Source of the DNA: Alternaria dauci
Lineage: Eukaryota; Ascomycota; Dothideomycetes; Pleosporales; Pleosporaceae
Direction of reading: 5' to 3'
DNA length: 64,000 nucleotides
NCBI RefSeq assembly: GCF_042100115.1
Contig: NC_091276.1
Coordinates: 124,001 to 188,000, forward strand
Part shown: piece by piece, positions 12,001 through 46,338 of the stretch
How positions within the stretch are numbered: the stretch's first letter is position 1
Layout: every line of letters starts with the position of its first letter
Program-made: the position numbers and the translations under genes
The notes under the pieces: model-generated
The model's input: only the letters and a program-made list of their open reading frames with translations
Told to the model about the DNA's origin: nothing
The model's database searches: none

Positions 12001-13239
12001 ATGTCTTTAACACGAACATCTCAAGAACTAACCTAGAAGATTACACTGCCCTTAAGTTTTGTAGACCTACTATTAACGCCGCCGCTAACTAACGAGAAGC
12101 TGTTTACGTAAGCTCTTTAAGTCATCGCACTCTTCTATAAGATCTAAACTGGAAAGCACAGCAATTAAGACCTGTAGATAGAGTTCTCGCTTCTATTAGG
12201 GGAGTTTAATAGGGTGCAGGGTCTACTTAACTAAGACAAGGAGCTGCGAAGGTTTGTAGAGGACAAGATACAGTAGGTATACTTAATACATAGTAGGCAT
12301 GGCAGCTAACACGAGAGGTAGGTAGATATAACTACAACGCTGAAAAGCACCAGCTTATTGTCTGCATACCTACAGCCGTGCACGAAGTGTTTATCGCTTA
12401 GGTTGAGGACGCAGTCTTCAGTCAACTAAAATTAATCCGTAAGGGATTAGACGACGCAGCGGCTTTCGCCCAGAAGGTGAATCTAGCTTAGTCTACTAAG
12501 ATATATTTTCTAGTTAACAACGCTTCGCCTAGTAAGGAGTCAAAATATAAACCTAACGCGTCTTTCTAGCACGACAAGGCATATTATCCTAGGGTTATTA
12601 TTAAGGTCGTATACTTACAGAAGAAAAAGAGACTAAGCTAACTAGCTAAAGACTATCTCTTAGATTCAGATGCAAATATATGAGCCGTTGTTGGGTTAGA
12701 CATTAAGTATGGCAAGAAAGGCTTACGCAAGGCGACATTGTCCGTGTAGCGAACCTAAGTGTTCCACACTCCTACAGGAGATGAATTAAGAGTGTTCTAT
12801 AAGATTATAGATGAGGTATGCTAAGGTGCAAAAAACTTGCTTACGTTGCTATGGCTGACAATCTACTCAGACGTTCCGCGATCATGACGGGAGGCCTACC
12901 AATTATCAAGGCCTGCGGCTACGCCTTAGCAATTTCGCTCATAAAGGGTTAGTGAAGGACAAGATTAGTAATCAGGATAAGGACTTAACGGTCTCTGCTT
13001 AACAGCTCTGCTCCTTTCTAAGCGCAGCGGAGGCGAGAGTAGACTAGAGAGGATCGTTAAGTAAGGATCTAATCGCTCCTAGGATCAAGAAGCGGAAGAG
13101 ATCAGAGACACCTAAAGACAGGATTGCATCTAGTGATAAAGCATGGTATATTAAGCAAGAGGAGAGGACAGCGAAGCGCATAGCGGGCGATAACCCTAAT
13201 TACAAAGATCGATCGCAAATAAAAAGCTTGTCAGAGTAA
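12001..13239 (+). pseudogene. Degraded fungal protein with nuclease-like core, copy 1
   Basis: The frame from ATG 12001 has many TAA/TAG codons, but its conceptual protein aligns along its length with the minus-strand gene at 36,067-37,225. Shared blocks in order are an N-terminal LLLTPPLT segment, a VEDKIQ splice-site region, an AFAQKV segment, then YPRVIIKV..LQKK, LLDSDANI and GLDIKYG, and after a second intron TFRDHDG...GLRLRLSNF. The frame ends at TAA 13,237-13,239 after a Lys/Arg-rich tail. The block with the pattern P.ASF...YP.V(I/V)(E/K)V.Y.QKK resembles a PD-(D/E)XK nuclease fold, but this is a tentative reading. Nonsense codons replace Gln and Trp, consistent with mild RIP. Confidence 0.55.
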
Positions 13240-14971: not shown

Positions 14972-15461
14972 ATGCCAGAGCATCCTGTAGAGACCATCCT
15001 CCAATATTATTTCTCTAATCGCGGATTACTCGACGAAGCATTACTCGCCGCAGGGGCATCAGTTTCTAGTAAAGATGTACAAGGTAACGCGCAAGGAAAC
15101 AAGCGCCTCGCTCTCCTAGGAGATTCTGTTCTACAAGAAGCTGTTCTGGAGCCATAGTACAACTCTGAGGAAAGCACTGGTGAGTGCACATACGTGAAGA
15201 TTTGCTAAGAAACTAACATGGTCAGAGGAGGGTTCTAATAGAGTAAAAAATCTATGTGGGAACACAAAGTTGAGCGAAGTAGCTGAGAGAAGCGGACTGA
15301 CGAGGTACATCGTCAAAAACCCATGCCAACAAGGTCAGGCACCGCAGGAGACTGCCGCATCAACGGTTGAAGCACTGGTAGGAGCGGTTTACCTAGATTG
15401 TGGAAAGAACATATCAATAGTCATGAAAGTCCTTGAGGCTATCAGGTTTTTCACAGAGTAA
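14972..15461 (+). pseudogene. Small RNase III-domain protein with a single nonsense codon
   Basis: Exon 1 (14972-15179) and exon 2 (15226-15461) are joined by a 46-bp intron with GTGAGT donor, CTAAC branch point and CAG acceptor. The result is about 147 codons. Residues 43-54 read NKRLALLGDSVL, the RNase III signature region, and exon 2 contains TVEALVGAVYLD, the second conserved helix. The canonical first acidic residue (Glu in ERLEFLGD) is Ala here, and the Asp before FEA is Ser, so the double-strand RNA cleaving site looks incomplete even apart from the stop. Codon 62 is TAG (15,155-15,157) where TGG is expected, a G-to-A change in RIP context. The rest of the frame is clean. No dsRNA-binding domain is present. 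This fits the mini RNase III-like proteins found in ascomycetes. Confidence 0.72.
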
Positions 15462-21510: not shown

Positions 21511-22244
21511 ACGTATTTTTTTCCTTTCCTAGTAGTTGATTTAGGGGGACAGGAGGAGAGGAGAGCAATGCTAACAACATAAATAGTTTATTAATAAAAT
21601 TAGTAGTATTAGTGCATTAGATTAGAGTGCGAATTTGCTAAGCTTTCCGCAGAGCAAGTATAAGAATCTAAGGGGAGGGTTTCCTGACAACTAGAGCCCA
21701 TTTCTCGGCTCTTCAAAGACTGTGTTCTCAGACAAGGCTTTTCCCAGTAGTTCTAGGGAGCTTTTGTCACAGTTTGGAGTCTCTCTTGCCTCAACATGTA
21801 GTGGCGCCTCACCTTAGGTGAGATGATACTGCCTATCCTGCACTAGCGTTGTTATGGTCACCCACCTACATATACTGTTCGTAGCCTCACACAATACAAC
21901 GTTAGTTCAATCCTTTAATACTTCCTGCACACTATCCCCTATAGCTTTACAATGCTAACCAAAAATGGTTTCCGGTTCGTGTATATCATTTATTCTCAAC
22001 GGACAGAAGACTCACCTGTTTAGTACTATGGCTACATCGTACTCACTCAACTTTACCACAGACTGAACTTGGTTGTTATGTAGCGTATGTAATATCTTGA
22101 TCATATAAGGTGCGTCCCTAGGTAACAAGACGCCTTATGTAACGAGACACTTTTTCGTCCAGACCTTCAGAGTCGCGCCACAGAACCTATTAAAGCTCAA
22201 GCTTAACGCAATGCAGTTCTGCAGCTGTAACAATACGACAACAT
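21511..22244. other. Transition from RIPed to normal sequence, no gene
   Basis: RIP-type composition ends near 21,640, and from there CpA/TpG are common. I see nothing coding. Around 22,110-22,160 are two short motifs (GGTAACAAGAC and TGTAACGAGAC) that faintly resemble the subterminal motif of the large TIR element, too weak to call. Confidence 0.4.
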
Positions 22245-24001: not shown

Positions 24002-24716
24002 TACCGTGTCTGTGCGCAATCCGAGCCAGTTCTCAATCCGAGCCACTTTTTACATACAAATCTCTAATATTAAAGTAGATATAACTTCTTTAATACTTAG
24101 TATTTTGACGAACTTCTAATACTAAAGTTATAGAGAAATATAAGCTCTATAAATCTAGAGTTTTGCTTTTTTAAATTTCTATAATATAAGCTTTTTTTCC
24201 TAAAAAGTCTAAAATTAAGTACTTTAATAAAGTTACTTCTAGTATCTATAAGGTAAAGCTTTTATTTCTCTTTAACTCTTATATTTAAAGTTCTTAAAAA
24301 TATTAAGTATTAAAAAAGTTATTTAGAAAAAACGTTTTTTTAAAATTTTAAAATCTTAAATCTTTAATAACTTTTTTATTTATTAAGATTTTTAGAATCT
24401 TTCTTAGTATTATAAATATAGAGACTTTTTTCTTTCTTAATATAAAAAAAGTTTTTAATTATCTCTACTAATTAAAAAGTATATTTTACTAGCGTTTTTA
24501 ATAAACTAAATAACTTAGTAGTTATAGAGAAATATAAATATATTCTCCTCTTATATTATAGAGGAGGTAATTCTGTATATTTTATATATTTAAGGTTTTT
24601 ATTTATCTTTTATAGTTACTTAGATGTTTAGCTTTTAAAAAGTACTTTTTTACTGTTTTTACTAGTAAAAAGTGGCTCGGATTGAGAACTGGCTCGGATT
24701 GCGCATAGACACGGTA
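24002..24716. mobile_element. MITE with 50-bp TIRs and TA target duplication
   Basis: The element spans 24,004-24,714 (711 bp) between TA dinucleotides. Its first 50 bp and last 50 bp are inverted copies with one mismatch (TG versus TA). Each TIR contains two copies of the motif CGAGCCA. The interior has no CpA/TpG and no coding frame, so it is heavily RIPed although the TIRs are nearly intact. TA duplication and size fit a non-autonomous Tc1/mariner/pogo-type element. Confidence 0.9.
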
Positions 24717-26229: not shown

Positions 26230-27110
26230 TTCGTATGTCAGAGTCACAGACGTAGAAGTGGAGGCCTGCAGCGACGGGGAGCTTTGTAGGCCATACTAGA
26301 GAGGTATAGGTCTAGATTGAAGAAGACTTAGAGCTTCTCATACATAAATACTTAAGAGTGATATAGTGCAGTTATAGGAGACTGCGACCGGAACGTATCG
26401 CAGCACGCTAGAGGGCCACTCTAGGGTATATCTCGTATATCGATTTCTTGCCAGATAGCCAGGTACTTCACAAGAACTAAGGCGACAATCCTTTGCTTCA
26501 CACTTCTGTTGTCAAATCGCTCTCTACACCGCAACCATGTTTCTCCAACATTCTAGTGCAGGATCAATAGATATTGCACAAACAGCAAGGTTCTCTATAG
26601 CTTCTGCTAGGGTTTCGACCTCAGTCGACTGCAGTGCCTTTGTTTAGTAAGGGATATTTTGGCGGCGCTTACGAGCTTCTGGACACGTCTCTACAGCCGT
26701 TGCCTGCTTACGTCATCAGATGCAGCTGTACAAGCATCCTGTTTGATCAGGTCGTGTAGCGACGTCAGGGACTTTACGGTTACTGGCGTTAGTAGAACTT
26801 CATTCTAGGAGGGCGTTTTTGCTGTATTAGTGCCACAACTGGGATACTCTGCGGGCAGCTTCGGCATATCACGAAGCACCCTATCTAGGTTAAAAGGAAA
26901 CAGTCCAGCAGCAGCCCATCCAGCGCGAATGTTCCTTGCGGCTATAGCTTTGTCCCTCTATAGCTTATAAAGGTAATGTTGTTTGCGAAGCAAAACTCGA
27001 GGACCTCTAGTGTTTCGTAGGTTCCAAAGCCATCAGAGATTAATACCCGAGTCAAGTTGTTTTTGCAGTACTTCTCATTCGTGACGAGGTACCTAGGAGT
27101 ATAGGTATAT
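26230..27110 (-). pseudogene. Degraded Fot1/pogo transposase fragment
   Basis: The minus-strand reading gives RVLISDGFGTYETLEVLEFCF near 27,060-26,980, almost the same as residues 239-259 of the transposase at 39,068-40,744. After a deletion that removes the third catalytic Asp region come NIRAGWAAAGLFPFNLDRVL and DLIKQ...QRLQRRVQKL, matching that protein's middle and C-terminal parts. Frameshifts and stops are frequent toward 26,230. The N-terminal DNA-binding half is missing. No TIRs were found around it. Confidence 0.72.
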
Positions 27111-32050: not shown

Positions 32051-32940
32051 GGCAAGAGCACTAGGGAGCCGCGTTAGAATGTCACCAACTTTAGGGTCGC
32101 GAACGCGATGTCACCAGCCTACGGCGACAGGGTGAAACCACGACTTTTAAGTGCTACTTACTCTACATAAAGTCTACGCTTTATATCTATGTGCGCTGCA
32201 AGGGATCACGCTAGTCGTAATAGTAGCTGCGTACCAGTAATGAGCCACGGCGCGCAGTGAGTCAGTCAACAATATTACCACCCCACAAAATTAAGGCTGT
32301 AGAGCCACCGCAACAACTACTATCAAAATCCTTTATAGTTTTATAGCATAGAGATACTTACGCATAACTTGTATTATTTCAATTTTTAAGAAATCTTCAT
32401 TTGGCGGCCGCGCGAGTTCAGCTTAGGCGGCGGGCTGGGTGTGTCGTCTCTGAGATGCTTGCTACGAGGAAACGAGCAATTAAGCTAGGCTGGTGACCCA
32501 TGATTGCAATCTATATGCGAAACTGATCGTGAAAATCGCGCGGGGAAAGGCAAGAATCATTGTTGCAGCGTTTAATGCAGCAAATTGGCGCCCAAGCGCG
32601 CGAAGCAGTATTCAATGTATGATGTATATTTGATTATTCTGTTCTGATGTCGTGGTCACCTTACATATATATCCATAATCAGGGTCTATTTATACGACGT
32701 ATCTCTAAAGCTAGTAATGGTAGAAGGTTCTCATAATTGTGAGTGAGCAGCACTAGGACAACACACGTGGCACACGCATTGTCCTCACCTCATAAACCGT
32801 AAGTTAACAATGATTCTCCGGGCACGACGAGATATATGGGATGGTGCGGAAATCACGGTGAATTACGGGAGAGCATCTTCTGCGGAAGTGGGGTGCTTGT
32901 GAGCAACATGCCGCAAAATTGCTGCATCGACAAAGGACTA
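32051..32940. other. Normal-composition spacer, no gene
   Basis: RIP stops sharply near 32,040. I find no coding frame, RNA gene or TIR pair in this stretch. Confidence 0.35.
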
Positions 32941-33016
32941 ACTCATACTTTCCGCATCACCTACCACACGTACGTTGAAGGTACTCATCAATGAGATATA
33001 CCGTAATTATCCAGAA
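32941..33016. repeat. 76-bp dispersed repeat, copy 2
   Basis: Same-strand partner of 27,779-27,854 with 74 of 76 positions identical. It lies 125 bp left of the outer pogo element. Confidence 0.85.
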
Positions 33017-33252
33017 ATTTAGCTCTAAGAGATTAAAAGAGTAGAATTACTTAACTCACTACATTTCGTTAACATCTTAAAACCTATAGTTTACTCTTAT
33101 CTATTCTTATCACTTGGATAGTATAATTATTCTTTAAGCTAACGTACCTTACGGGTTCGTGGAACACTTTTGCCAAGCCCCCACCAAAACCACCCCATTT
33201 TGGCGCAAAACAGCCTACTTTGGCTCTATATAGAACAATGTAATACGCGATA

Positions 33253-34908
33253 TTATTTAGAGTCTACTTCTACTGCCTGCTTACATGTACGCGCATTATG
33301 CCTAGTCTGATTGCACTGCCCGCAGCGCCTTTGAGTTAGCTCACCTCCTTTAGCACGCACCCGCTTCTTTGGCTTCTTCTTATTACTACGCGCCCTAAAC
33401 TCTTATAGAGCAGTTAGACGAGCCCCTTCCTTAACTATTAAGGTCCCTTCTGCCTAGACCCGCTTCCTTTTATGCGATCTATGTCGCGTAGCAGCCTTAT
33501 TTGCCGCTCGAAGCTCTGCGATCTCCTTTTGCGCCAACACTAGCTTGTGCGCGATAATCGCTGCCCCCTTTAAGACTTTCTTAAAGGCCTTTACTATAGA
33601 AGTTAGTAAGCTATCTATATACTTCTAAATCCTTGCCTTTACGAACGTCGATTGCGACCCTAATTCAAGGGTATTGCTAGGGGTTTACGACTGCCAGGGC
33701 TCGTTGTTGATAGGCAGTAGTAGTGATGGAGTACGTAGCCGGACGTCAAGGGCTGCTATAACCCGTTCTAGGTCAAATAGGACCAATCCAGCGCCTCGAA
33801 ACCCTCCTTAAATATTACTAGGAGCAATTGCAGCATTATAGGCGCGTATAAAGCATGGTAGAAACTCTAGTTTTGTGATGTGAGTGATCCGGTTGCGCAT
33901 GAGATTTTCGGCTTAGCGCCCGTACGCCGTTTTCAAAGGCGAGAAACAACCTACATCAAGAGGCTGCAGGAGGTGCGATGAGTGTGGAGGCATGCAGATA
34001 GTGATGATCTTGTTCTCCTTGCAGTACTGCTGGAATGCGAGCGAGTCGTGGCTCTCATAGCCGTCAATTGCGAGCAGTTAGTGGCTGCCAACTACCCTCT
34101 TCTTTGTATGCTTATTAAAGTGCTTCAACTACTGCAGACTAAGCTCGTTTGTTGTCCAGCTATTCTCGGAGACTGCAATAACCTAGTCCTGAGGCAGAGC
34201 CTCCTCCTTATACTAAGCAGAGAGGTGCTGGCGGCCCTTAAAAATAATGAAGGGTGGAATAGCCCACCCTGTCGCGTTAATGCCCTGGATGACTGTTGTC
34301 CACTCTCTGTTGCCTTGCTGCACCGCCTTTGGCCTTCCTCGTCTCTCTGAAACCGTAACAACTGAGCCAGTGGATATCTGGCCCATCATGAAGCCAGACT
34401 CGTCGAAGTTGTACGTGTCTTCATCCTGGATGCCGTACTTGGCTTTGATATTGGCTACTAGGCTGAACCAGCCTTGTATAACCTCAGGATCCTCACAGAG
34501 AGCTCCCTTGTAGTCGTACTTGCGATTAAACTTTGTTGTGAGCTCAGGGCGACCTTTGACGAACGTACTAGGCCAGTTTACCCCAACCTGGCCCATATTA
34601 CGCTCAGCGCGCAAGGAATTGGCCATATCAGCCACAACTGCGAGCCTGGGGGGAAATCCTCGCGCGACTAGCTTAAGTATATGCTTAACAAGCACGTCCT
34701 CCTCAATCTTAGTTAGATTCTTTGATTTAGGCTAGCAATCTGCTTGTGGAGTCTGTCCTGCGCGTCGGCGGCTTAGTGTTGATAGAGCGACGTTATAGAT
34801 AGCTGCAGCGCGTCGCAAGGAGAGTGTCGCGTCTTGTTTAAGAGCTTGAAGGGCAGTCTGTATCTGACGTTCATTAGAGGAGTCTATCTGGTGTTGTTGT
34901 TGAGGCAT
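33253..34908 (-). pseudogene. Pogo-family transposase with nonsense codons
   Basis: A single frame of 552 codons without frameshift runs from ATG 34,908 to TAA 33,253. N-terminal residues 10-60 hold a psq-like helix-turn-helix (RAAAIYNVALSTLSRR), followed by a CENP-B/Tc5-type DNA-binding region to about 140. The DDE domain shows NFDESGF (Asp169), LLAIDGYES (Asp282) and LLQPLDVGCFSPLK (Asp318), so the DD35D spacing is intact. A C-terminal zinc knuckle reads CGQCNQTRHNARTC. About seven internal TAG/TAA codons (for example after ADC and HLSA) replace Gln or Trp, fitting RIP. It would have cut and pasted this element at TA sites in the nucleus. Confidence 0.85.
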
Positions 34909-34942
34909 TATGTAATATCCCTCACTACGTAGCGAGAACCAC

Positions 34943-35608
34943 TCTCTCAAGAGAAAAATAATAAGTACTTAGACTAATATATAGAAGAAACCCTTTCTAC
35001 GCCTCTGTAACTGTGTAACAGTACGTAAGTGAAATACGACAGATCTTCCTTGCCCTCTTAACAGTCGCCACTAGAAAATTACCAATACTGTCGTCGCCTC
35101 TGCGCCTGATTTAAGGAGTGCCTTGTCGCATAGCACGGTAGAGCACCTCTTCTCTAGCTCTACTAATCAGCTTGCATCGCTTCTAGTAATTATAATTTTG
35201 TAATCTGAACCCCTCTAGCCTTACTACCACGCTCGTAAGTCAACCTCAGCCCTGTAGCGGCGATACTAGGATGATTCATGCAGTGTCGCTACCCTTGTCG
35301 GTACCTTCTCGTTAAGCGAGCGAGTCTGGCTGTCTCAAAGCATCGCTAGCACGTCTCACGTAATACTTTACTTGTAATCTAAGCCACACTGCTCATCTGC
35401 CTAGCCTGTGGCTAGAAGCCATCCTAGAATAGTCATTCAGTGATTGTCCGAAGTTCCCCCACTCAAAGTCATTTGACTCCACCTCGGAAGTTAACGTTAG
35501 GTTAGAGCAGACTACCGTCCTCACCGCCAAATACGACACGCTAGCGAACGAAGCATAACGACCTTACTCCCCAGCCCTTCTGTTTGCTCTGAATTCGATA
35601 ATAAGGTA
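34943..35608. other. Left interior of the cargo segment, no clear gene
   Basis: Normal composition with scattered TAG codons. It may contain the mutated upstream part of the zinc-finger-like relic that becomes readable from about 35,609. Confidence 0.35.
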
Positions 35609-35989
35609 GACGATGCCTATGCTGACCTCCCTCCCGGACACGTATAGGCTTATCCCTGTAAGCTCCTTTCGTGTCCTAACTACGGCAAGTCCTAGCTCCT
35701 TCGAAGCAAATTCCTCCTCTATCTGCAGGAAGGAGATTTACACAGGACAGTAACTACACTAGCTGTGCGCCGCATAATTAAGCAAGAGTAGCGGTATACG
35801 ACTGATCCTTATTTACCGCGTTGAACGGCCCTAGATTTTCGTCCCCGAGATGATCCAGACGAGCACGTGTGGGAGTACGGGTTTAGAGATGAAACTAGAA
35901 AGGTGATAAAGGGCAAAGGCACGATGAAGCAAATAGAGATGCATCGGGCATCACGGCGCCAGGAGATACAGGAGAGGCAGACAACATAA
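35609..35989 (+). pseudogene. Zinc-finger-like protein, C-terminal part
   Basis: The frame ends at TAA 35,987-35,989. It reads AYPCKLLSCPNYGKS*LLRSKFLLYLQEGDLH, a degenerate C2H2-type finger, then RYTTDPYLP, a conserved-looking DFRPRDDPDEHVWEYGFRDET and a basic tail. Stops at V*AYP, KS*LL, QE*RY and PR*TA are probable Trp, Gln or Arg positions altered by RIP-type transitions. It is the first readable item inside the 10.7-kb segment and points toward the nuclease-like gene. Function unknown; DNA or RNA binding is an inference. Confidence 0.45.
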
Positions 35990-36066
35990 TCACAGTTTTG
36001 CTCGTACGTTGCTGTGAAGAGATTTACTTTATTCTAGTCTAAAAAGCTCTTAGTTGATGATTTATC

Positions 36067-37225
36067 CTAATAGTCCATGTCACGATCTGCGCGCTTCGCT
36101 ACTCTCTCCTCTTCCTTAGCATATCTTGCTTTATCTCCTGCTCTAATCTCTTCCGGAGGTGTTTCCAACTATTTTCGCTTCTTAACCTCCTTGGCAAGCA
36201 CATGCTTGCCCAATGCTTGCTCTTCTTTGCTATCTGCCGCACTGAGGTATTCGCAGAGTCTTGATCCAGGAATGCGGATAAAAGTGTCCTCCTCACCCAT
36301 TTCCCTCTGGGCAAGTTCTTCGTAGGTGAATTCGCTGAGGCGGAGCTGTAGACCTGGATGGTCTACGGCATTTCCTTCGTCATCACGGAAAGTCTGTAAG
36401 GAACGTCAGAAACTGGCAAAAATTGTTAAGAGAGTTAGACTTACTACATCTGCGACCCCTTCTACAGCTCGTAATTCAAGTCCGTTATTAGTAGTAAACA
36501 ACTTGGGTCTCCAGACTGATAACGTTGCTTTGCGCGACTTCTTGTTTCCGTACTTAATGTGTACGCATACGACAGCCCGCATGCTAGCATCTGAGTCTAA
36601 TATGTAGTTCTTAGCTAGCCGGCCTAAGCACGGCTTCTTCTGCGAGTATGCGACTTCAACTATAACGCCTGGATATTGTGCGTCTTTATGCCTGAATAAC
36701 GCTTCTGGCTCGTACTTCGATTTAGACGAAGTGCTAGCGCCAAGACGTATATAGGTTGATTGGGCAGGATGCACTTTCTGCGCGAATTCTGCCTTCTTGC
36801 CTAATCCGTTCTGTATTGTTTTTAGCTAGCTCCGAATGTCATCCTCCACTTTGTCAATAAAACGTTCGTGTATCTCGGTAGGCATGCGAACGACTAATTT
36901 GCGTTTATCTTCGTCGTAGTTATACCTAGCGCAAAATCCGTTAGATGTGACCTCTGCCGTCTCTGAAGTCTACTCACTGTATCTTCTCGTCCACGTATCC
37001 CGAAAGCACATCGTCTTATTGAAGCGTGCTCTCTATCTAATCGTACTCTCTGTCTGCAAGCTGAAACTCCGTCCGCGCGTCTCGCTCAGCGTCAGTTCTT
37101 GCGTAGATTTGTTTAAAAAGAGCGATAACACGATGCGCCTCTGCAAATGGCTTCTTAGCGGTCGATGGCGGCGTCAACAGGTGATCTGTGAATCTTAGGG
37201 GTGGCGTGACGTTTTGATGCTTCAT
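36067..37225 (-). pseudogene. Degraded fungal protein with nuclease-like core, copy 2
   Basis: ATG 37,225 opens MKHQNVTPPLRFTDHLLTPP. A short intron (GTGAGT donor, CTAAC branch, GCTAG acceptor near 36,980-36,930) and a second one (36,394-36,444, GTAAGT to ACAG) separate three exons. The middle exon carries MPTEIHERFIDKVEDDIRS, AEFAQKVHPAQ, then YPGVIVEVAYSQKK, NYILDSDASM and KATLSVWRP. The last reads TFRDDEGNAVDHPGLQLRL...FTYEELAQREM with a charged tail to TAG 36,067. P..LF..KDAQYPGVIVEVAYSQK resembles a PD-(D/E)XK core, which would make it a nuclease-fold protein, but this is tentative. Stops at EYD*, TLQ* and IRS* inactivate it. A diverged copy lies at 12,001-13,239. Confidence 0.6.
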
Positions 37226-37904
37226 TAAAGCTGCTTACGATATGGGCATAGCTTTACGTTGTGCTGCATCGTGAAGTTAGTTGGAAGCTGTCGCTCTTGC
37301 GCAATCGGACGGATCGACCAAACCTTGGCTGCTTTTGGTTGACTCAGCAACAGCGCCACACTAGCAGGGAGCCAATAACATAACTGTGGCTGATGGGACA
37401 AGCCATCCTGCATTGGCTGCAAAGGACCAACGCGCTTAGTCTATAATACCACCTTACCTACGACACAATTGTTGAGGCTGCAAAGCCTCTAATCTATGGC
37501 TCTATTCTTAAAGTTCTTCTGCCCGTTTGTTAGCCGACCGGCCGACCAGCCGCAGTTGACAGCCCTGCACTGCGACCGCGTTCTTGCACGCGACTGTCAA
37601 TTAATTAGCCTGTCTGATCTTCTGAATGCCAGACAAAGCCGAACTTAAACGTCGAAGAGCATAGTCGTAGAGAGACAAGGCCAGGAATTGTCGAGAGGAA
37701 GAGGAGGCGGAAAGAGAGGAGGAAGAGGCTAGGCGCCGACGAGCGCAATCCTAGAGAGATAAGGCTAGAAACCAGCGTGAGGAGGAGGAAAGGATAACCA
37801 GGATAGCGCGGGCTGTTCAGCGACAGCTAGCTCTTAGTTACGAACCGAGCTAGCCAGTAGCCGTACTGGTAGCGCAATTATCAACAATATCGCTTGTCGC
37901 CATA
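37226..37904. other. Spacer with a charged-repeat relic
   Basis: 37,640-37,820 encodes, in one plus frame, two copies of a motif like RRRA.S.RDKARN.REEEE, an Arg/Glu-rich coiled-coil-like stretch with TAG codons. It may be the 5' part of a lost gene ahead of the BTB gene. The remainder shows nothing. Confidence 0.35.
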
Positions 37905-38623
37905 ATGGAGGCACGTTCGGCCAAGTTTATGCGAGACATCGCTAGGTATTTACCCTTTAGACTTGCACAACTTTACCTAACTTTCATAGGATATTTAATA
38001 ACACGAAATACTCTAATGCCACGGTCGTTATCCACAGTAAAAAACTACCCGTTCACAAATCCGTTATCTGCACGCAAAGCGAATACTTCGAGAAGGCATT
38101 CCAGGACGCGTTTGTTAAGGGAAGTTCAGGAGTACTTACATTCAATAATGATAGTGGAGCTGCCCACTGGAGGGTGTTTGAATACCTGTACACTGGCGAC
38201 TACTCGGACGATCTATCGCATGACTTCGAGGGTACGGTGGAAGTTGAACCTATTCGCTCGATTTTCTAATAGCTACTAGATGATCCCACGCTGTTAAAAG
38301 AGCCTCGTGTATACGCCCTCGCTAATATGTTCTTCTTAGAGGACTTGAAAGCGCTTGCCACAGCAAAACTTCAACAAAAGTTAAAAGAGCTCTAGACCAA
38401 CGAATCTTTTCCAGAATGCATTCGCGAAGTACATGCGACTACTCCTCAGGGCGACTGTGCGATGCGATCTGCTGTAGTTCAGGTTGCCAAGAACCACGTA
38501 AGAGAACTAGGCAAACAGGTCGTGTTTAAGGATCTCATCCACGAAGGTGGCGATTTTGCTGTTAACTACTTTGAAAGTGTTGTTTTTCTAGCGCCTTCAG
38601 CGGTCCTCCCAACGCGTCCCTAA
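37905..38623 (+). pseudogene. BTB/POZ-domain protein with three nonsense codons
   Basis: Exon 1 (37,905-37,945) and exon 2 (37,990-38,623) flank a 44-bp intron with GTATTT donor, CTAAC branch and CATAG acceptor. Together they give 224 codons plus stop. After MEARSAKFMRDIARIF comes a BTB fold: ATVVIHSKKLPVHKSVICTQ, SEYFEKAFQDAF, GVLTFNNDSG and FEYLYTGDYSDD. A helical tail follows, with VYALANMFFLEDLKALA. Fungal BTB proteins of this length often act as Cul3 adaptors or orphan scaffolds. Two adjacent stops follow PIRSIF and a third follows KLKEL, all RIP-compatible. It sits between the nuclease-like gene and the Fot1-like transposase. Confidence 0.75.
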
Positions 38624-39067
38624 GTAAGCGACCTTTTTGGTGGTACGTATAACAATTCCTCTGCATGGTAGTCAACCGCAATGCCTTGCTTAAGAACCTC
38701 CCTGCTTCGAGCTTAGCGGCCTTAAGCCAACGGGGTTTGACGTAATTTGTCTGATGGACAGGTGGCATTTTAGCAGGGATGAGCAATATCAACAATGCAG
38801 TAGTTGCACATCGGGTAGAAAAAGATGGCGAAGCAACATCATGAAGTTTTAGCTATCATTTGCGTCATTCATGCTGCATGGTATGCATCGCCGATCATAC
38901 GGCACATCTTGGCTTTGACATACATCACCAAGAATGATACGCACGATAGCCGCAAGCATGTTGACTGCTCAAGTCACCACAAGACATAGAGGTACCAAGG
39001 AAAGAGCACAAGCGTGCGCATAGGAGAGCGAAGGCTGATAAAGACTTCGACTACAACTGTTCTTTTG
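38624..39067. other. Spacer between BTB relic and transposase
   Basis: No gene or repeat recognised. No TIR specific to the Fot1-like gene is visible here. Confidence 0.35.
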
Positions 39068-40744
39068 CTAGTACATCTTCGCCTCTAGGGCTCTATATGG
39101 CTGTTGGATAATCTCAACTTCCTTAACTCGTGTTTCGCTTGTTCGTAAGACTTTTGCCCTCTGCGCTGAGTTACTAGCATCCTGCTCTGGCGAAGCGCTC
39201 TTTCGTTTCCGACCACGTTTCTTCATGCCCATAGCAGCACCTTCTGCCTCTGGTGCCGCACTTGCGACATCTCTGGCTTCTTTAGCAGCCTTTTTGGCCC
39301 TTTTCTCTGCCTCCTTGGCGTCCGTCAGAGCGCGTTCCGCTCGCTTCTTCTCGAGGTCCTCATAGGTCGCCACTCTTGCCGTACCTATTACCTTTTGATC
39401 GGCTGCTCGGCGAGCTTTTCCTTCGTTGTTAATCGTAGCTAAGAACTGATTTCGATTGTAAAGGAGTGCAATCTTGGCAAGGTACGTCTGAGCGGCATTT
39501 GCCACCTTCTGTTGGAGCTTCGCCTTGTGCTGGCTGCTCGCTTGATTATTGGGTACCTGTTTGATCCTGTCAAGTAGCGACATCAAAGCCTCTCCAGATA
39601 CTGGCGTTGCAGGCGTAGGCAGTGTTTCGTAGTCCGGACGGAGATCTATCCTCAGCTTACTAGCGGTCGATATGGTTAAATCGGTGGGGGGTTTAGGTAT
39701 CTCTGCAAGGACTTTATTAGGATTGAATGGGAATAACCCGCTTCCTCTCCAGGCTCCAAGGATGTTTCTTTTCGTAAACGCCTTTTCCCTTGCTGGGCTG
39801 TACAGATAAGTGAAGTGCTGCTTGCCGACTGTGTTTACTCCACCAAGCTCCATCCTTTCCACTTGTTCGCGATAGACTGTCTTCAAGGGCCCGAAGGCCC
39901 CGACATCACATGGCTGGGTCTTGTGGGAGGTATGGGAGGGCAAACGGCAAAGGATGATGTTGTTTTCAAAACAAAACTCCAAGACCTCCAGGGTTTCATG
40001 CGTTCCGAAACCATCCCAAATAAGTACGCGTGGTTTATTGTTAGCGCGTTGTTTGGTTTGGGGATCGAATACAAGCTTAAGCCACTGCAAGCTAATATAA
40101 GAGTCGGTGAATCCAGTATCAGAGAGCGCATAGACCCAACCAGGCGTAGGATACGTAGTCCAGTTGGCTCGATGGGTTTTAGCGGGCCAGATTATCATGG
40201 GGTTTAGACACCTTCCGTCTGCGGAAATGCATTCAACAGCAGTTACCATGGTACGCTTGACGCGTGCACCTCTATAAGCGTGTGTATCGTCCTTACCAAC
40301 TAAGACTTTCACGGAATTTAGCATACTTAGCATAACGCCAGTCTTGTCCATATTGTAAACGTTCTCTGGATAGACATCGGGCTCACGTAGCACCGGCCCA
40401 ATCACCTCAAACCAACACTTAACCTTATCATAGATGTTGAGCCGGTTCCAATCCTGCGGCCTGCTCTTCTTCGCTGCGATTTCTGGACGATGTTTCTCAA
40501 ACGCCTTAGCCCAGTTCGGGCCGGGCGGCTTGAGTGGCCTGTCCGCTGGGGGCCGATTGCGAGTGGCACTGAATGCTATCGCAGCTATATGCTTCATCCG
40601 CACAGGTGTTCCAAAAGCCTTCTGTTGTAACAAGAACTCGACAACTGCGTTCGCTTCGTACGGGGTGAGGTACCGCTGTTTTTGGGCTTTGACCTGCATC
40701 GATTCTCGCTCGAGTTTGCGATGACCGAGGGTAGAGAGAGGCAC
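39068..40744 (-). CDS. Fot1/pogo-like DDE transposase, long uninterrupted ORF
   Basis: 558 codons without a stop. The frame shown begins at a GTG, and the first ATG is codon 16 (40,699). The same frame stays open to about 40,870 and there encodes ALTEALPDGIPDTLAARAAHFNVP, which is the expected psq helix-turn-helix, so the true start has been lost or lies in another exon. Residues 25-100 form the CENP-B/Tc5-type DNA-binding region. The DDE domain has NMDKTG (Asp133), LIWDGFGTHE (Asp244) and KTQPCDVGAFGPLK (Asp280), giving DD35D spacing. The C terminus is Lys/Ala/Glu-rich, with RKRKSASPEQ near residue 520. Unlike its neighbours it has no nonsense codon. It is the best candidate for a source of transposase in the window, though the start problem leaves activity doubtful. 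Confidence 0.85.
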   Translation of the reverse strand: MPLSTLGHRKLERESMQVKAQKQRYLTPYEANAVVEFLLQQKAFGTPVRMKHIAAIAFSATRNRPPADRPLKPPGPNWAKAFEKHRPEIAAKKSRPQDWNRLNIYDKVKCWFEVIGPVLREPDVYPENVYNMDKTGVMLSMLNSVKVLVGKDDTHAYRGARVKRTMVTAVECISADGRCLNPMIIWPAKTHRANWTTYPTPGWVYALSDTGFTDSYISLQWLKLVFDPQTKQRANNKPRVLIWDGFGTHETLEVLEFCFENNIILCRLPSHTSHKTQPCDVGAFGPLKTVYREQVERMELGGVNTVGKQHFTYLYSPAREKAFTKRNILGAWRGSGLFPFNPNKVLAEIPKPPTDLTISTASKLRIDLRPDYETLPTPATPVSGEALMSLLDRIKQVPNNQASSQHKAKLQQKVANAAQTYLAKIALLYNRNQFLATINNEGKARRAADQKVIGTARVATYEDLEKKRAERALTDAKEAEKRAKKAAKEARDVASAAPEAEGAAMGMKKRGRKRKSASPEQDASNSAQRAKVLRTSETRVKEVEIIQQPYRALEAKMY

Positions 40745-40870
40745 GTTGAAATGTGCTGCTCGAGCCGCGAGGGTGTCAGGTATGCCGTCAGGAAGTGCTT
40801 CGGTTAATGCTCGACTCTCCTTATCTATAGTTAGCTCACCGAGGGTTATTGGAGGGAGAGGGCGGGAGGC

Positions 40871-41056
40871 AGCTCAGCGAGTCCCAGTAAACGGCAGTGC
40901 AGGCGATGCAGCCAGAACACGTTGCTATTTTAAGATTGGGCAGACCGATTCAGCCGCCGAACAGAATAAACTAACCAAACTGACCAAACTAGCCAAGCAA
41001 ATCGAGGAAAAGCTATCCCTGCGCCACAAGGCCCATGGAAGCTTCTAGTTTAATAC
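40871..41056. other. Spacer between transposase and minisatellite
   Basis: GC-richer than its surroundings. A direct run of CTAACCAAAC / TGACCAAAC / TAGCCAAGC triplets occurs near 40,975-41,000. No gene. Confidence 0.35.
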
Positions 41057-41133
41057 AGTAAACAACGAATTATTAGACCTTGTATTAAAGAATTAGTAAA
41101 CAACAAATTATTAGACCTTGTATCTAAGAATTA
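41057..41133. repeat. 38-bp minisatellite, left part (2 units)
   Basis: Two units of a 38-bp repeat (AGTAAACAAC.AATTATTAG..., ending AAGAATT) at 41,057-41,094 and 41,095-41,132. The array is continued at 42,979 after the pogo insertion. Confidence 0.9.
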
Positions 41134-42979
41134 ACGTGTTTCACCAGTAGTTCGGCCGCCCCAGTGGTTCGGCCACTAAACCCCACCAAAACGCCTGCGC
41201 AGCGACGTCGCGTAATGTCTCAACAATACAACGTACAAAAGACTTATACTGAAGCAGATGTAACTACTGCTATCTCTAGTATTACTTCTAAGCAGATTCA
41301 GAGCAAACAACGCGCTGCAGCGGTATATAACGTCCCTCGAACAACAATCCAAGCGCGACGTGCTGGAAGACGCTCTCAACGCGACAGCGAGCCGAAAGTA
41401 AAGCGCCTAGAGAAGCTAGAAGAGGAGGTGATTGTACAGTATATACTTGAGTACTCTGTACGCGGTCTACCTGTCTCAAGGCTCAACGTACGAGATATGG
41501 CGGATAGACTACTGCGAGAGCGTGGTGGAAACGCTGTTGGCAAGAATTGGGTTGATAGGTTCATTCAGCGTACACCTGAGCTGCGAACGCGATGGACCCG
41601 TCCGTACGATCGCCAGCGAGCTGCCTGCGAGGACCTAGCGCTTATCTAGCCCTGGTTCACGCTAGTTCACAACATGAAGGCGAAGTATGGTATCACAGAT
41701 AAGGACATGTACAACTTTGACGAGTCTGGGTTCGTGATGGGCAAGATAACGCCTTAGCTTGTGGTAACAGGCTTAGAGAAGCCTAGGAAGAGGAAGAAGC
41801 TCTAACCTGGCGATCGCGAGTGGACTACCCTGGTACAAGCCGTCGGCGCGACGGGTTGCGTTATCCCACCCTTCCTCATCTTCGCAGGCAAGGTTCTTAT
41901 CTCAACCTGGTTTACTAAGGACCTCCCGCGCGATTGGGTAATACAAGTTAGCCCTACTGGATGGACGAACAACGATCTAGCGCTTGCCTGGCTTGAACAC
42001 TTCGACTCGCATGCGAAGCCTGTCGGGGCGTACAGGCTGCTTATTATTGATGGCCACGAGAGCTATTGCTCAGTCGATTTCCAGGAGCGCTGCAAGGAGA
42101 AGAAGATTATTACTCTCTGTATGCCTCCACACTCGTCGCACCTCCTGCAACCGCTTAACGTTGCCTGCTTCTCGCCGTTAAAGTGCAAGTATGGCGACGA
42201 GGTCTGTGCGTTGATGCGCAGGCGCGTCCACCATATCAGCAAAGAAACCTTCCTACCAGCCTTTAAAGCAGCATTTCAGAAGGTGATTACGCCAGAGAAC
42301 GCTCGCGCAGGGTTCCAAGGCGCTGGGCTTGTCCCACACAACCCAGAGGTGGTGTTATCGAAGCTTAACGTACGGCTCTGTACTCCACCGTCAACCACCG
42401 TCGAGGACGGTGCTTAGGAGGCGAAGACGCCGCGCAACGCCCGCGAGATAGAGGCGCAATCAACACTAATTCGAAATCGCATGCAAATCCAACGAGGGTC
42501 ACCAGCAAGTTCTCTTGATGAGCAGATCACGCAGTTGAGTAAGGGCGCTCAGCAGATAGCTCATAATATGGTGTTAATGCAGGAGAAAATAAAGAGCCTT
42601 CAAGAGGCAGTAGAAGCGTCAACAAAGCGCCGGAGTCGTAAAAGGCGATATATACGGGCAGAGGAGACCTTAACAGTAGGTGAGGTAAGCGACTTAATCG
42701 CTGCGACAGTGGTTGACAGTTGCAACGATGGCGATAGACCGTCGAAGAGGGTGCGCGCAGAGAGGCACTGTGGGCGTTGCGGCGAGACTGGGCATAACGC
42801 CCGCACCTGTAAGGTAGAAATTGAGGACGCAGATAATAGCGATACATCTGAAGAATAATATTCTGTTATATTAACGATAAATAATTATTGTGGTGTTGCG
42901 CTGCAGCGCTGTGCAGGCGTTTTGGTGGGGTTTAGTGGCCGAACCACTGGGGCGGCCGAACTACTGGTGAAACACGTTA
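41132..42979 (+). mobile_element. Complete pogo-like transposon inside the minisatellite
   Basis: The element is 41,134-42,977 (1,844 bp) between TA duplications at 41,132-41,133 and 42,978-42,979. The TIRs are about 71 bp long with one mismatch and start ACGTGTTTCACCAGTAG. Excising the element with one TA recreates an exact minisatellite unit junction (AAGAATTAGTAAAC). Its ACGT termini and gene layout match the outer pogo element, but the TIR sequence differs, so it is a separate family member. Confidence 0.93.
41215..42858 (+). pseudogene. Pogo-family transposase with RIP-type lesions
   Basis: A single 548-codon frame runs from ATG 41,215 to TAA 42,858. It has a psq helix-turn-helix (AAAVYNVPRTTIQARR), the CENP-B/Tc5 DNA-binding region with NWVDRFIQRTPELR, and DDE motifs NFDESGF (Asp169) and LLIIDGHES. 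The third catalytic Asp has become Asn (LLQPLNVACFSPLK, compare QPLDVGCF in the outer element). A coiled coil near residue 440 precedes a zinc knuckle CGRCGETGHNARTC. TAG/TAA interrupts after LALI, KITP, KKL and VEDGA. All lesions are C-to-T or G-to-A. The protein is about 50-60% like the outer pogo transposase by eye. Confidence 0.88.
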
Positions 42980-43205
42980 GTAAACAATAAATTATTAGAC
43001 CGTGTGTCTAAGAATTAGTAAACAATAAATTATTAGACCGTGTGTCTAAGAATTAGTAAACAATAAATTATTAGACCGTGTGTCTAAGAATTAGTAAACA
43101 ATAAATTATTAGACCGTGTGTCTAAGAATTAGTAAACAACAAATTTGTAGACCGTGTGTCTAAGAATTAGTAAACAACAAATTTGTAGACTTTGTGTCTA
43201 AGAAT
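42979..43205. repeat. 38-bp minisatellite, right part (6 units)
   Basis: Four identical units (42,979-43,130) are followed by two variants carrying AACAAATTTGTAG. With the two units left of the pogo element the array had eight units. Divergence grows toward both edges while the centre is homogeneous, as expected from unequal exchange. Confidence 0.92.
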
Positions 43206-43485
43206 AACGTACGTAATTCTCTCTAGGTTGTGGTGTATTATTAATCTAGTAGTTAGAATTAACTCCACTTTAATATATTAAGATAAGATCGGGCTAGGGG
43301 TTACACTCGTGCAGACCTTGCGGAATTAAGATCTTAAAGCCGGCACACGCGCCATAAGATCTTGGTTTTCCCTTTAGTTCTATACCCTATTATTCGTTAT
43401 TCTGTTTCAAATTTAGGCCCAGAAATATACCTCGAAGGATTCTGTTGTAGCTTCCAACGTATTACACCAATCCCGTATCACAAAC
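43206..43485 (+). promoter_or_regulatory. Upstream region of the NmrA-like gene
   Basis: 280 bp between the minisatellite and the NmrA-like start. It contains a palindromic TTAAGATCTTAA near 43,326 and CT-rich sequence toward the ATG. A core promoter is likely here, but no specific factor site is identifiable. Confidence 0.35.
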
Positions 43486-44800
43486 ATGGCAAAGAAGATT
43501 ATTACTATCTTGGGCATTACTGGCAAGCAGGTAATTTTGGCTTCTATCCCCCCGTCCCCTTTCTTCTTAGATTTACAGGACATCTTTTATTAACTATATC
43601 GTCTTGCGATAACACTTCGGAAGCTAATCACTTATTGGCTGAAAATAGGGCTCCTCCGTTGCCAATGTTTTCCTCAGAGAGGAAGGCTGGCACATCCGTG
43701 GCGTGACCCGTGATCCAAGCAAGCCGGCGAGCCAGGTTTGGGTTGAGAAGGGCGTCGAAATCGTCAGAGGCGACATGAACGATGCTGCCATGCTGAAGAA
43801 GATCTTTGCCGGGTCAAATGTGATATTCGGCGTCACAGACTTTTGGGCCGTCGTGCGCGATCCAACATTCCAGGAGAGTGCCAAAGCGGCCAACGTTCCC
43901 ATTAACGTGCTCGCCTACGACGTCGAAGTCCAGCAAGGACGGAACATCGTAGACGCTACGAATGCAACCCTTGACACCTTGGAGCGGTTTGTGCTATCGA
44001 CGCTCTCGCCCACGAAGAAGTGGAGTAAAGGCAAATACTCGCATGTCTACCACCACGATGCGAAATGGGAGGCTGTTGAATACTTAAAGGCCACCTATCC
44101 TGAGCTTGCTAAGAAGACGTCGTATCTACAGGTGACGCTATATATGACGAACTGGAAGGATTTTGGCCCCCTCGGGGTAGGCAAGCCAGTTAAAGTAAGT
44201 CTACAGCTCCTGGAGAATTTGCCACTCGCTTGAGCATAACTATTTGAATTTAGGGCAGAAGCAGCTGACAGGCCAGTAGCAACCTGATGGCACCTTTTTG
44301 TTGAGCCTTCCTGGGGATCCCGATCGCCCTATTGCGCACATCGATGCGCGCCGCGACACTGGTAAGTCTGCCGTATTGATCACAGTGAATTCTTTTAGCT
44401 AATATCTGACATTTAAGGCGAATTTGTAAAGGCCTTAGTAAAGGTCCCAGCTGGCCAAAACCTTCTTGGTGTTGCTAGCACGTTGAGCTGGAACGAGTAT
44501 GCTACTTTGTGGGGCAAGATACATGGCGTGACCTGTCGCTTCGAGCGCCTTGACCGCAAAGTCCTTGAGGACGCTATCCCTAATGGCGTTGGTGAAGAGT
44601 TCGCTGAGACGTACGAGTACATCGCAGAGTTTGGTTGCGATGGTGGTGATCTAACTGTTGTTCATCCTAAAGATGTAAGTAACTATTCTATCCCTAATTC
44701 TGTATTCTATCTTCTTACAGAGGCATAGCTTGGTATAGATCTTCCATTGTACACTGTGGAAGAGTACATCAAGGATGAGGATTGGATGTTCGTATTGTAG
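43486..44800 (+). CDS. NmrA-like NAD(P)-binding protein, five exons, intact
   Basis: Exons 43,486-43,530, 43,649-44,194, 44,280-44,361, 44,418-44,674 and 44,729-44,800 join into 1,002 bp, 333 residues, with no stop or frameshift. Introns have GTAATT/GTAAGT donors and TAG or AAG acceptors. Residues 1-16 read MAKKIITILGITGKQG, the GxxGxxG dinucleotide-binding loop of NmrA-like/HSCARG atypical short-chain dehydrogenases. Later blocks are VTRDPSKP, FGVTDFWAVV, LSTLSPTKKWSKG, KATYPELAKKTSYLQ, HIDARRDTGEFVKALV and LSWNEYA. The catalytic Tyr-x3-Lys of true SDRs is not evident, so a cofactor-sensing or regulatory role, as for NmrA in nitrogen control, is more likely than enzymatic activity. Length matches the family. 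It is the only complete gene recognised here and sits inside the 10.7-kb insertion. Confidence 0.87.
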
Positions 44801-45654
44801 GGTTGAAGCCTACGGTCTGCTCCGCCACCGCCTACCCTAGAGGATTGTTAGAATCCTACGTAGGATTCCGCTTTCTACAGTGGCCGTGCGCGAAACGAGC
44901 CAGTTCGCGGGTCGAGCCACCCCAACAAGATCAGACGACTAGAAAGATAAGGCTGTAGAGCTACCTACAAAAGCGATTATTGCGAGATTTCTTAGTGTAT
45001 TACTGTATTAATATATATAAAGCTTTCTATCTATTTGAATCTCGCTAGCGTCTTAAAGTTATAGCTACGTAGGCTTATTTTAGGTAGGGGAGACGCAGTA
45101 GGCAGACTAGCGTTAGCACGACTTACTATAGCTATAACGCCACAACGCTTTACTAGAATTTTTACTACTTTATATAAGGCTTTTTACTTATATCCTATAG
45201 GTATATTATAAGATTTTTATATAGTAAAATACACAGCCGCTAATACGCACTGATATGCGCTGAAGTAACGAAGGATCGTGAGACCCCTCATTCTGCTCGG
45301 CGAAACTCTCGGAAGCATGAACATCGAAGGCATAACAACTTCAAAAGTTGGGAACCTTTTGGTTATTCACAAGAATATCGTTGAATGGCTCTGAAAGCTG
45401 CAGATCTGCTGAAAGCTGTGCGCAAACCGGGGTTGTGCGGTCGGAGAGGATCTAGAACCAGTAACGAAACCATCGACGGCATGACCAACAGAGCAGTAAT
45501 TTTCCAATCGCACATCCATACTAAGTGCAGGACTGGCCAAAGAATAGCGATATACTAGCTGCGACTTCAAAGACTTGTGTGAGAGTGACTTAGGATAACT
45601 AAATAGTAAAGTCATCTCGTTACGGGGTGGTTCTCGTTACATAGTGGGGGATAT
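44801..45654. other. Right interior of the cargo segment
   Basis: At 44,885-44,930 is a single copy of a terminus-like block (GTGCGCGAAACGAGCCAG, then CGGGTCGAGCCACC) built like the MITE TIR at 24,004, without a matching inverted partner in the window. 44,990-45,235 is a short RIP-like stretch. 45,250-45,620 has normal composition and no gene. Confidence 0.45.
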
Positions 45655-45784
45655 TAGATAGGTAGAGTTTGGTGGGGGCTTGGCAAAAGTGTTCCACGAA
45701 CCCGTGTGTTCCACGAACCCGTGAGGTACGTTATTATCTATAAAGCCTTTCTTATTAAAGTTCTAGGTATCTTAGGGTTCGCCT

Positions 45785-45905
45785 GCAAAGCCTTACCAAA
45801 CTACACCGCCTCTACTTGCGTTCGATTGTCTATACTGTTCGCTGTATTAAGAGTATCTCGATCACAGAGGGCACTAAGTCTTAATCTTTGATCTTGATAG
45901 TGGCG
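45785..45905 (-). pseudogene. Un-RIPed fragment homologous to 58,515-58,635
   Basis: About 120 bp immediately right of the outer pogo element match the RIPed minus-strand coding remnant near 58,500. The differences are mostly C/T and G/A transitions (for example GCCTGCAAAGCC versus GCTTATAAAACC). In translation both contain DLVPSVIEILL on the minus strand. This copy is a short, frame-shifted relic. Confidence 0.6.
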
Positions 45906-46338
45906 GTGCAGAGGATGGCTTGGGCCTCGTGGCGACCTGATCGACCCAGCTACTAACGTGACATATAATCTGATGTTAAAGCGCTTAGGCACGATCGCGC
46001 CGCAAAAGAGGTAGAGAATACTATTCTAAATTATAAGGCTTATAGATATAGCTAATAGATATAATAAGATATATATTTAATGCTACTTGTGCTAAAAGAT
46101 AGGCGATCTAAGGTAGCCTTATAGGACTACCTAAGTTTAAATCTACTAGGTCACGGGCTAGTATTTTAAATATACTTTATTTTATTTATACCGCATAATA
46201 ATATAGCTAGTTATAGATTTTAATAATATATAGTCCTTCTTTAGCGGCTAGTTCTTTCTTATATAATTAGCCCTAGTATATATAGTAGCTATATCCTCCC
46301 TTATTTAACTAGTATAGTAGAAGATTTTATAACCCTAT
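45906..46338. repeat. Border into RIPed sequence
   Basis: RIP-type composition starts near 46,010. Nothing coding is recognised before the LTR at 46,339. Confidence 0.4.

Follow-up and report, generated by a model that had tools for sequence, protein, structure and literature searches.

A probable cargo-carrying Fot-type transposon in the carrot-blight fungus Alternaria dauci

Introduction

Can a Fot-type DNA transposon carry genes other than that of its own transposase? This question is raised by a 10.7-kb unit, bounded by terminal inverted repeats (TIRs), in the genome (34.9 Mb) of Alternaria dauci, the carrot-blight fungus. The unit occupies positions 34913-45656 of the stretch analyzed here, hereafter the window (64,000 nucleotides; contig C5, positions 124001-188000); positions given without a contig are those of the window. 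As described in PMC7386202, pogo elements measure 1.2-5.2 kb and have one or two ORFs encoding transposases; DD35D is the catalytic signature of nearly all Fot elements, the FotC and FotD clades use TA targets, and FotC TIRs are ∼100 bp long. A reading of the window made from its letters alone (the sequence-only reading) had proposed that the unit is a large pogo/Fot transposon with cargo genes. We conclude that it is probably a Fot element of excessive size that carries genes, Fot being a family of cut-and-paste DNA transposons in the pogo superfamily.

Results

The ends of the unit and the element it interrupts

The inverted ends (34915-34942 and 45627-45654) are identical at 25 of 28 positions, differ by three transitions, and are each flanked by TA, just as the sequence-only reading had it. 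The left TA and TIR (34913-34942, forward strand) have the layout TA-N14-GTAGCGAGA-N8-degraded second 9-mer; the right TIR and TA (45627-45656, reverse strand) read TA-N14-GTAACGAGA-N8-GTAACGAGA, continuing inward to 45615. Read as a direct repeat, the target duplication is TA and not TAA. A scan of positions 20001-60000 for inverted 28-mers that are flanked by TA and agree at 25 or more positions returned 67 pairs. Among the 60 that were listed, a single family of inverted repeats, located at 46.3 and 52-53 kb, accounted for 53. The remaining seven comprised the unit's own pair, the pair of an outer pogo element, three pairs from a nested Fot element, one lying between two transposase genes, and, at 24.0 kb, a pair bounding 0.7 kb. 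No pair reached 25 of 28 matches in any of 30 first-order shuffled versions of positions 32501-46200 (best, 20 of 28). Genome-wide, the unit's end had three matches at up to three mismatches: the unit's two ends and C5:299168.

The unit lies in the 5′ leader of an outer pogo/Fot element, four bases before its ATG. The gene side of this element (33140-34912, reverse strand; matched frame with nine stops) begins at the element's own left TA, and the displaced TIR and leader end (45657-45733, reverse strand) extends to its right TA. Joining the flanks with one TA kept restores a pogo element of 1,852 bp including its terminal TAs, or, without them, the 1,848 bp that had been claimed; its rejoined leader measures 83 bases from TA to ATG, exactly as in an ordinary Fot element nested within the unit (41132-42979). 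The gene side has nine genome matches, one being itself; none of the other eight reaches the junction to give an empty site, the query having ended there with no joined query searched.

The transposase gene

Inside the unit is a Fot-type transposase gene (39068-40873, reverse strand) with a DDE_1 match (Pfam E 1.2e-29) and 35 residues between the second and third catalytic D, the DDE_1/DD35D combination of the Fot family. At a Pfam E of 0.01, neither HTH_psq nor HTH_Tnp_Tc5 was matched in it; precomputed PF03221 matches exist for 15 of 120 listed relatives. The sequence-only reading had credited the gene with an uninterrupted, Fot1-like ORF of 558 codons. The frame is indeed open, over 601 codons, but the count of 558 starts from a GTG, no in-frame ATG comes before codon 59, and the start ATG of its relatives is missing: in all eight relatives whose starts were examined, MD stands at the position corresponding to codons 16-17, and a related element on contig C9 (E2, below) has an ATG there in its DNA.

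Searching the genome with the transposase gave 45 matches. Apart from the query itself, the best was that of E2 (C9:1998072-1999745; 56% identical, two stops), followed by a relic on C1 (41%), whose 1.5-kb flanks contained no TIRs, the best alignment being AT-rich and not end sequence. Two pieces lie in the window at 26643-27073 (41 and 71%), and the remaining 40 of the 45 are 20-34% identical. Outside this genome, 7,995 candidates were scored and 120 of 908 relatives were listed. Those listed include JGI-source proteins at 87% and 92% identity, the latter aligned over 66% of the query's length; one protein from Pyrenophora tritici-repentis is 84% identical. In viral contigs there was one weak match (32%). 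Two P. tritici-repentis proteins share 88% identity with the E2 transposase, and one Bipolaris sorokiniana protein shares 85%; together with the E2 transposase they form a group of four in the transposase tree (100/100). Because pseudogene and partial rows were long-branched, we used only the U-type and E2-type groupings from this tree and disregarded the row of the nested Fot element, which was mis-framed (33 stops).

Related elements in the same genome

E2 (C9:1997451-2004781; 7,331 bp with its TAs) has 72-bp inverted ends that are 86% identical, and its 33-base end pattern occurs only twice genome-wide, in inverted orientation. The paired ends of the unit (three matches) and of E2 (two) are thus unique, which speaks for the reading as oversized elements. 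Between its ends, E2 contains the transposase gene and a HET/NACHT/ankyrin gene of the NOD-like receptor (NLR) type in two frames. The inverted similarity of the E2 ends extends ∼0.6 kb inward.

E5 (C5, ∼296.56-299.20 kb; ∼2.6 kb) has the unit's ends around a kinase gene and no transposase gene. It begins with a 28-base end that differs from the left end of the unit by one transition, followed by the kinase frame with one stop, a homologue of the region upstream of the unit's transposase (40917-41061, reverse strand; upstream of the kinase in E5), and, directly after it, a homologue of ∼45214-45577 and a degraded right end. The unit's right subterminal region (45214-45654) is homologous to E5 at C5:296.7-297.0 kb. 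No partner for the third genome-wide end, at C5:299168, was found within 20 kb at up to seven mismatches; the degraded end was found by alignment. Acquisition of the E5 kinase from another class is unsupported, its nearest relative being from Trematosphaeria pertusa (93%).

E3 (C5:311413-328551; 17.1 kb) has inverted ends alignable over ∼96 bases. We read 7.6 of its 17.1 kb (C5:311413-319000, equal to L033 2413-10000) and 200 bases at its right end (C5:328451-328650). In the part read there is a tetratricopeptide repeat gene, as well as a transposase frame of the DDE_3 (Tc1) type that is open over 398 codons and for which no clear TIRs of its own were seen in L033:6300-9200. E4 consists of the left end of an E2-type element (22106-22149, forward strand) and transposase remnants at ∼26739-27061; its right end was not found. 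Between these two parts of E4 lies a 0.7-kb stretch (24002-24714) with TA-flanked inverted ends matching at 27 of 28 positions, Fot-like by eye.

The eight ends available from the unit (two), E2 (two), E3 (two), E4 (one), and E5 (one) share one layout: TA, 14 bases, a 9-mer near GTARCGAGA, 8 bases, and a second 9-mer, the latter degraded in the unit's left end and in E5. The ordinary Fot families of the genome have the same layout with GTGACGAGC boxes, so the layout marks the Fot type and not large elements as such. What supports a large Fot-type element with cargo is E2, with a related transposase, the same layout, and other cargo, together with E5 and E3.

Cargo and the composite interior

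Compared with E5, positions 41,065-45,213 of the unit (∼4.15 kb) are extra. This block contains a 38-bp tandem repeat array, the nested Fot element, an NmrA-like gene, and a fragment of another Fot element. The nested element (41132-42979, forward strand) has TA on both sides and is inserted into the array; its C terminus has a zinc-knuckle motif, identified by eye, which we take to be what had been called a zinc-finger-like gene. The fragment (44876-45225, forward strand) is an end of another dispersed Fot-like family, and its right TIR was not found. The array itself, at 41062-41131 and 42980-43210, starts where E5 lacks the NmrA block. The unit is a composite, as the sequence-only reading had allowed. 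Without the block, a core of ∼6.6 kb is left with the ends, the transposase, a BTB gene, and an unknown gene, and the transposase start lies ∼0.7 kb from the right end; in E2 the corresponding distance is ∼0.6 kb, from the left end.

Both core genes other than the transposase are decayed. The BTB/POZ gene that had been listed is present (37961-38623, forward strand) but has in-frame stops, and its sole other genome match is 34% identical. The unknown gene (36169-36939, reverse strand), spliced and with one in-frame stop, had been called nuclease-like; that label is unsupported, Pfam having returned nothing for the main exon at E 0.01. Relatives of this gene, 53-55% identical, lie at 12426-12821 (53%; C5:136426-136821, six in-frame stops) and C5:2867222-2867561.

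The NmrA-like gene (43486-44800, forward strand), by contrast with these, is intact as claimed, with five exons encoding 333 amino acids (100% identical to A. dauci ACET3X_005659), and is of Sordariomycete type. Among the 120 relatives listed, of 284 proteins at E ≤ 1e-40, the best named matches after itself are from Eutypa (79%), Ilyonectria (78%), and Colletotrichum (77%). In the A. dauci genome 17 pieces matched, four being the gene itself, and the best other match is 52% identical; a recent capture from A. dauci itself is ruled out by this distance to the nearest paralogue. In a tree of 39 rows chosen from the 120, the unit's NmrA pairs with that of Colletotrichum incanum (100/99). The pair falls in a group of eight (100/99) with, in the classes to which we take these organisms to belong, five Sordariomycetes in all, one further protein, and the Dothideomycete Elasticomyces; seven Pleosporales-type rows form a separate group (100/96), and Melanomma stands apart on a long branch. 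Since an intact gene groups with Sordariomycetes, horizontal acquisition is the likeliest reading of this phylogeny, and a Fot-type element may have carried the gene between species.

None of 25 matches to the unit (the E2 transposase, the dispersed Fot fragment, and short Fot pieces) made it collinear with another locus of the genome, in a search that was not exhaustive, having missed E5, which was later found by BLAST. The flanks beyond ∼46 kb are AT-rich with dinucleotide ratios of the repeat-induced point mutation (RIP) type. Pfam searches with eight other frames of the window gave one match, a ribonuclease III domain fragment in a GC-balanced stretch (15198-15461), and none for the other seven.

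Discussion

How the unit may have arisen

If the unit is an oversized Fot element, its transposase would act on the unit's ends, binding two sites spaced by 17 bp in each terminal repeat, excising everything between the ends, and inserting it at TA; the cargo would then have moved together with the ends. From the unit, E2, and E5 we infer a canonical plan of TIR, leader of ∼0.6-0.7 kb, transposase or substitute gene, exchangeable cargo, and TIR. A core of ∼6.6 kb with this plan would have gained the ∼4.15 kb of Sordariomycete-type NmrA gene, repeat array, and Fot debris, a gain that could have preceded or followed its insertion into an ordinary pogo leader. The copy is probably no longer autonomous and probably dead in the strain examined.

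Several points weigh against this reading. The unit is single-copy in its genome, and neither an empty site nor a second strain was seen, so although E2, E5, and E3 lend substance to the proposal of a large cargo-carrying Fot transposon, joint movement of all 10.7 kb is unproven; as E5 lacks the NmrA block, the whole may never have moved. The unit's transposase has lost its relatives' ATG, that of E2 has two stops, and the right end of E5 is degraded. The part of E3 that was read has no close Fot-type transposase, its DDE_3 gene being Tc1-type instead. Small, ordinary Fot families also carry the end layout, and the two-box pattern at up to two mismatches gave eight matches versus nine (6 + 3) for a reversed control; at zero or one mismatch there were four matches, and TA was correctly placed in all four. 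A review of giant transposons states that DNA transposition falls strongly above 6 kb of cargo (PMC6431247).

Alternative explanations

The unit might be passive cargo of a dead Starship, an element moved by a tyrosine recombinase, and might owe any long-range movement to it. A relic of the Starship-captain family DUF3435 (3859-5179, forward strand; three matched pieces, full of stops) lies ∼30 kb upstream of the unit; nowhere else does the genome match this family at E ≤ 0.001. Within ∼200 kb downstream of the relic lie the unit itself and also E3, E4, and E5. The unit may therefore be riding in a dead Starship, much as ToxTA resides in the Starship Sanctuary (170-196 kb). Against this, no Starship ends were found, though none were sought, and E2 lies on another contig (C9) with its own transposase gene. 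The claim that the unit is distinct from Starships thus holds for its interior, where no DUF3435 captain was detected between the ends at E ≤ 0.001, and needs qualifying in view of its neighborhood. We regard passage in a Starship as a real possibility, albeit one with less than an even chance; it is compatible with a Fot cargo element and not exclusive of it.

It is also conceivable, although we think it unlikely, that a Fot element of ordinary size landed in the outer pogo and that all the other genes came later, by nested insertion and repair in a repeat-rich region, so that the unit was never a cargo carrier. The nested Fot, the Fot fragment, and the repeat array inside the unit, the absence of the 4.15-kb block from E5, the AT-rich, RIP-type flanks, and the reported fall in transposition above 6 kb would all fit this history. 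However, the block-free core still measures ∼6.6 kb and has two decayed genes beyond the transposase, where E2 has its NLR gene; E5 has a kinase between the unit's ends; and the presence of several oversized units in one genome makes filling after the fact less likely. That the two ends pair by chance, or come from two unrelated small elements, is very improbable and chance ends were rejected: dispersed Fot families are common in the A. dauci genome and the bare two-box pattern is not above its control, but the shuffles gave no pair, two of the only three genome-wide matches are the unit's own, and once all that lies between the ends is taken out, the rejoined pogo leader is exactly as long as that of the nested Fot.

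Known systems and significance

Taken as an oversized Fot element, the unit resembles its family in having DDE_1, DD35D, and the TA target of the FotC and FotD clades, and the E3 ends approach the TIR length given for FotC. It differs in size and content: at 7.3 kb (E2), 10.7 kb (the unit; ∼6.6 kb without the block), and 17.1 kb (E3), each with other genes, these elements lie outside the 1.2-5.2 kb described in PMC7386202. No Fot/pogo element above 5.2 kb with cargo was reported in the titles and abstract openings searched, a scope that leaves out most subscription papers.

The closest known kind, compared by description, is ToxTA (formerly ToxhAT) of wheat pathogens, presented in PMC12506042 and PMC6737239 as a 14-kb element with 74-bp TIRs, a TA duplication, and an NLR-type gene; it is described there as likely a non-autonomous Tc1/Mariner element whose transposase source is unknown, and as residing in Sanctuary. 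ToxA and ToxhAT have been reported in Alternaria ventricosa (PMC11857905). The unit has the features by which PMC12506042 characterizes such elements: it is TIR-bounded, above 10 kb, flanked by a TA duplication, and furnished with cargo genes. Across these accounts the likeness extends to several cargo genes including an NLR-type one, a nested transposon, a signal of horizontal transfer, RIP decay in some hosts, and Pleosporales as hosts. The likeness is one of described features, and the unit and E2, unlike ToxTA as described, encode a Fot-type transposase. Icarus, a putative 294-kb element around ToxB in Pyrenophora tritici-repentis (PMC9594970), is likewise TIR-bounded, with DDE genes, no tyrosine recombinase, and NLR-HET cargo in one isolate, as that account has it; it is ∼27 times larger than the unit, and which of its DDE genes acts, if any, is unknown. 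Starships such as Sanctuary and Horizon are also fungal cargo elements with NLR/HET genes, but a tyrosine recombinase moves them, whereas the unit has a DDE transposase gene, TIRs, and TA.

More tentatively, and at odds that we would put well short of even, Pleosporalean fungi may hold a self-mobile, cargo-carrying Fot-type family (∼7-17 kb) that swaps genes between the transposase and the far end, in which the transposase itself can be replaced by cargo, and which is the source of the transposase of ToxTA-like elements. Cargo transposons that move genes between fungi have so far been discussed mainly as Starships, with ToxTA as the exception having TIRs and a TA target. If true, a transposase-encoding Fot family with NLR, kinase, BTB, and foreign NmrA genes as cargo would provide this exception with a family and a candidate enzyme, with a recognizable end signature that could be searched for in any fungal genome.

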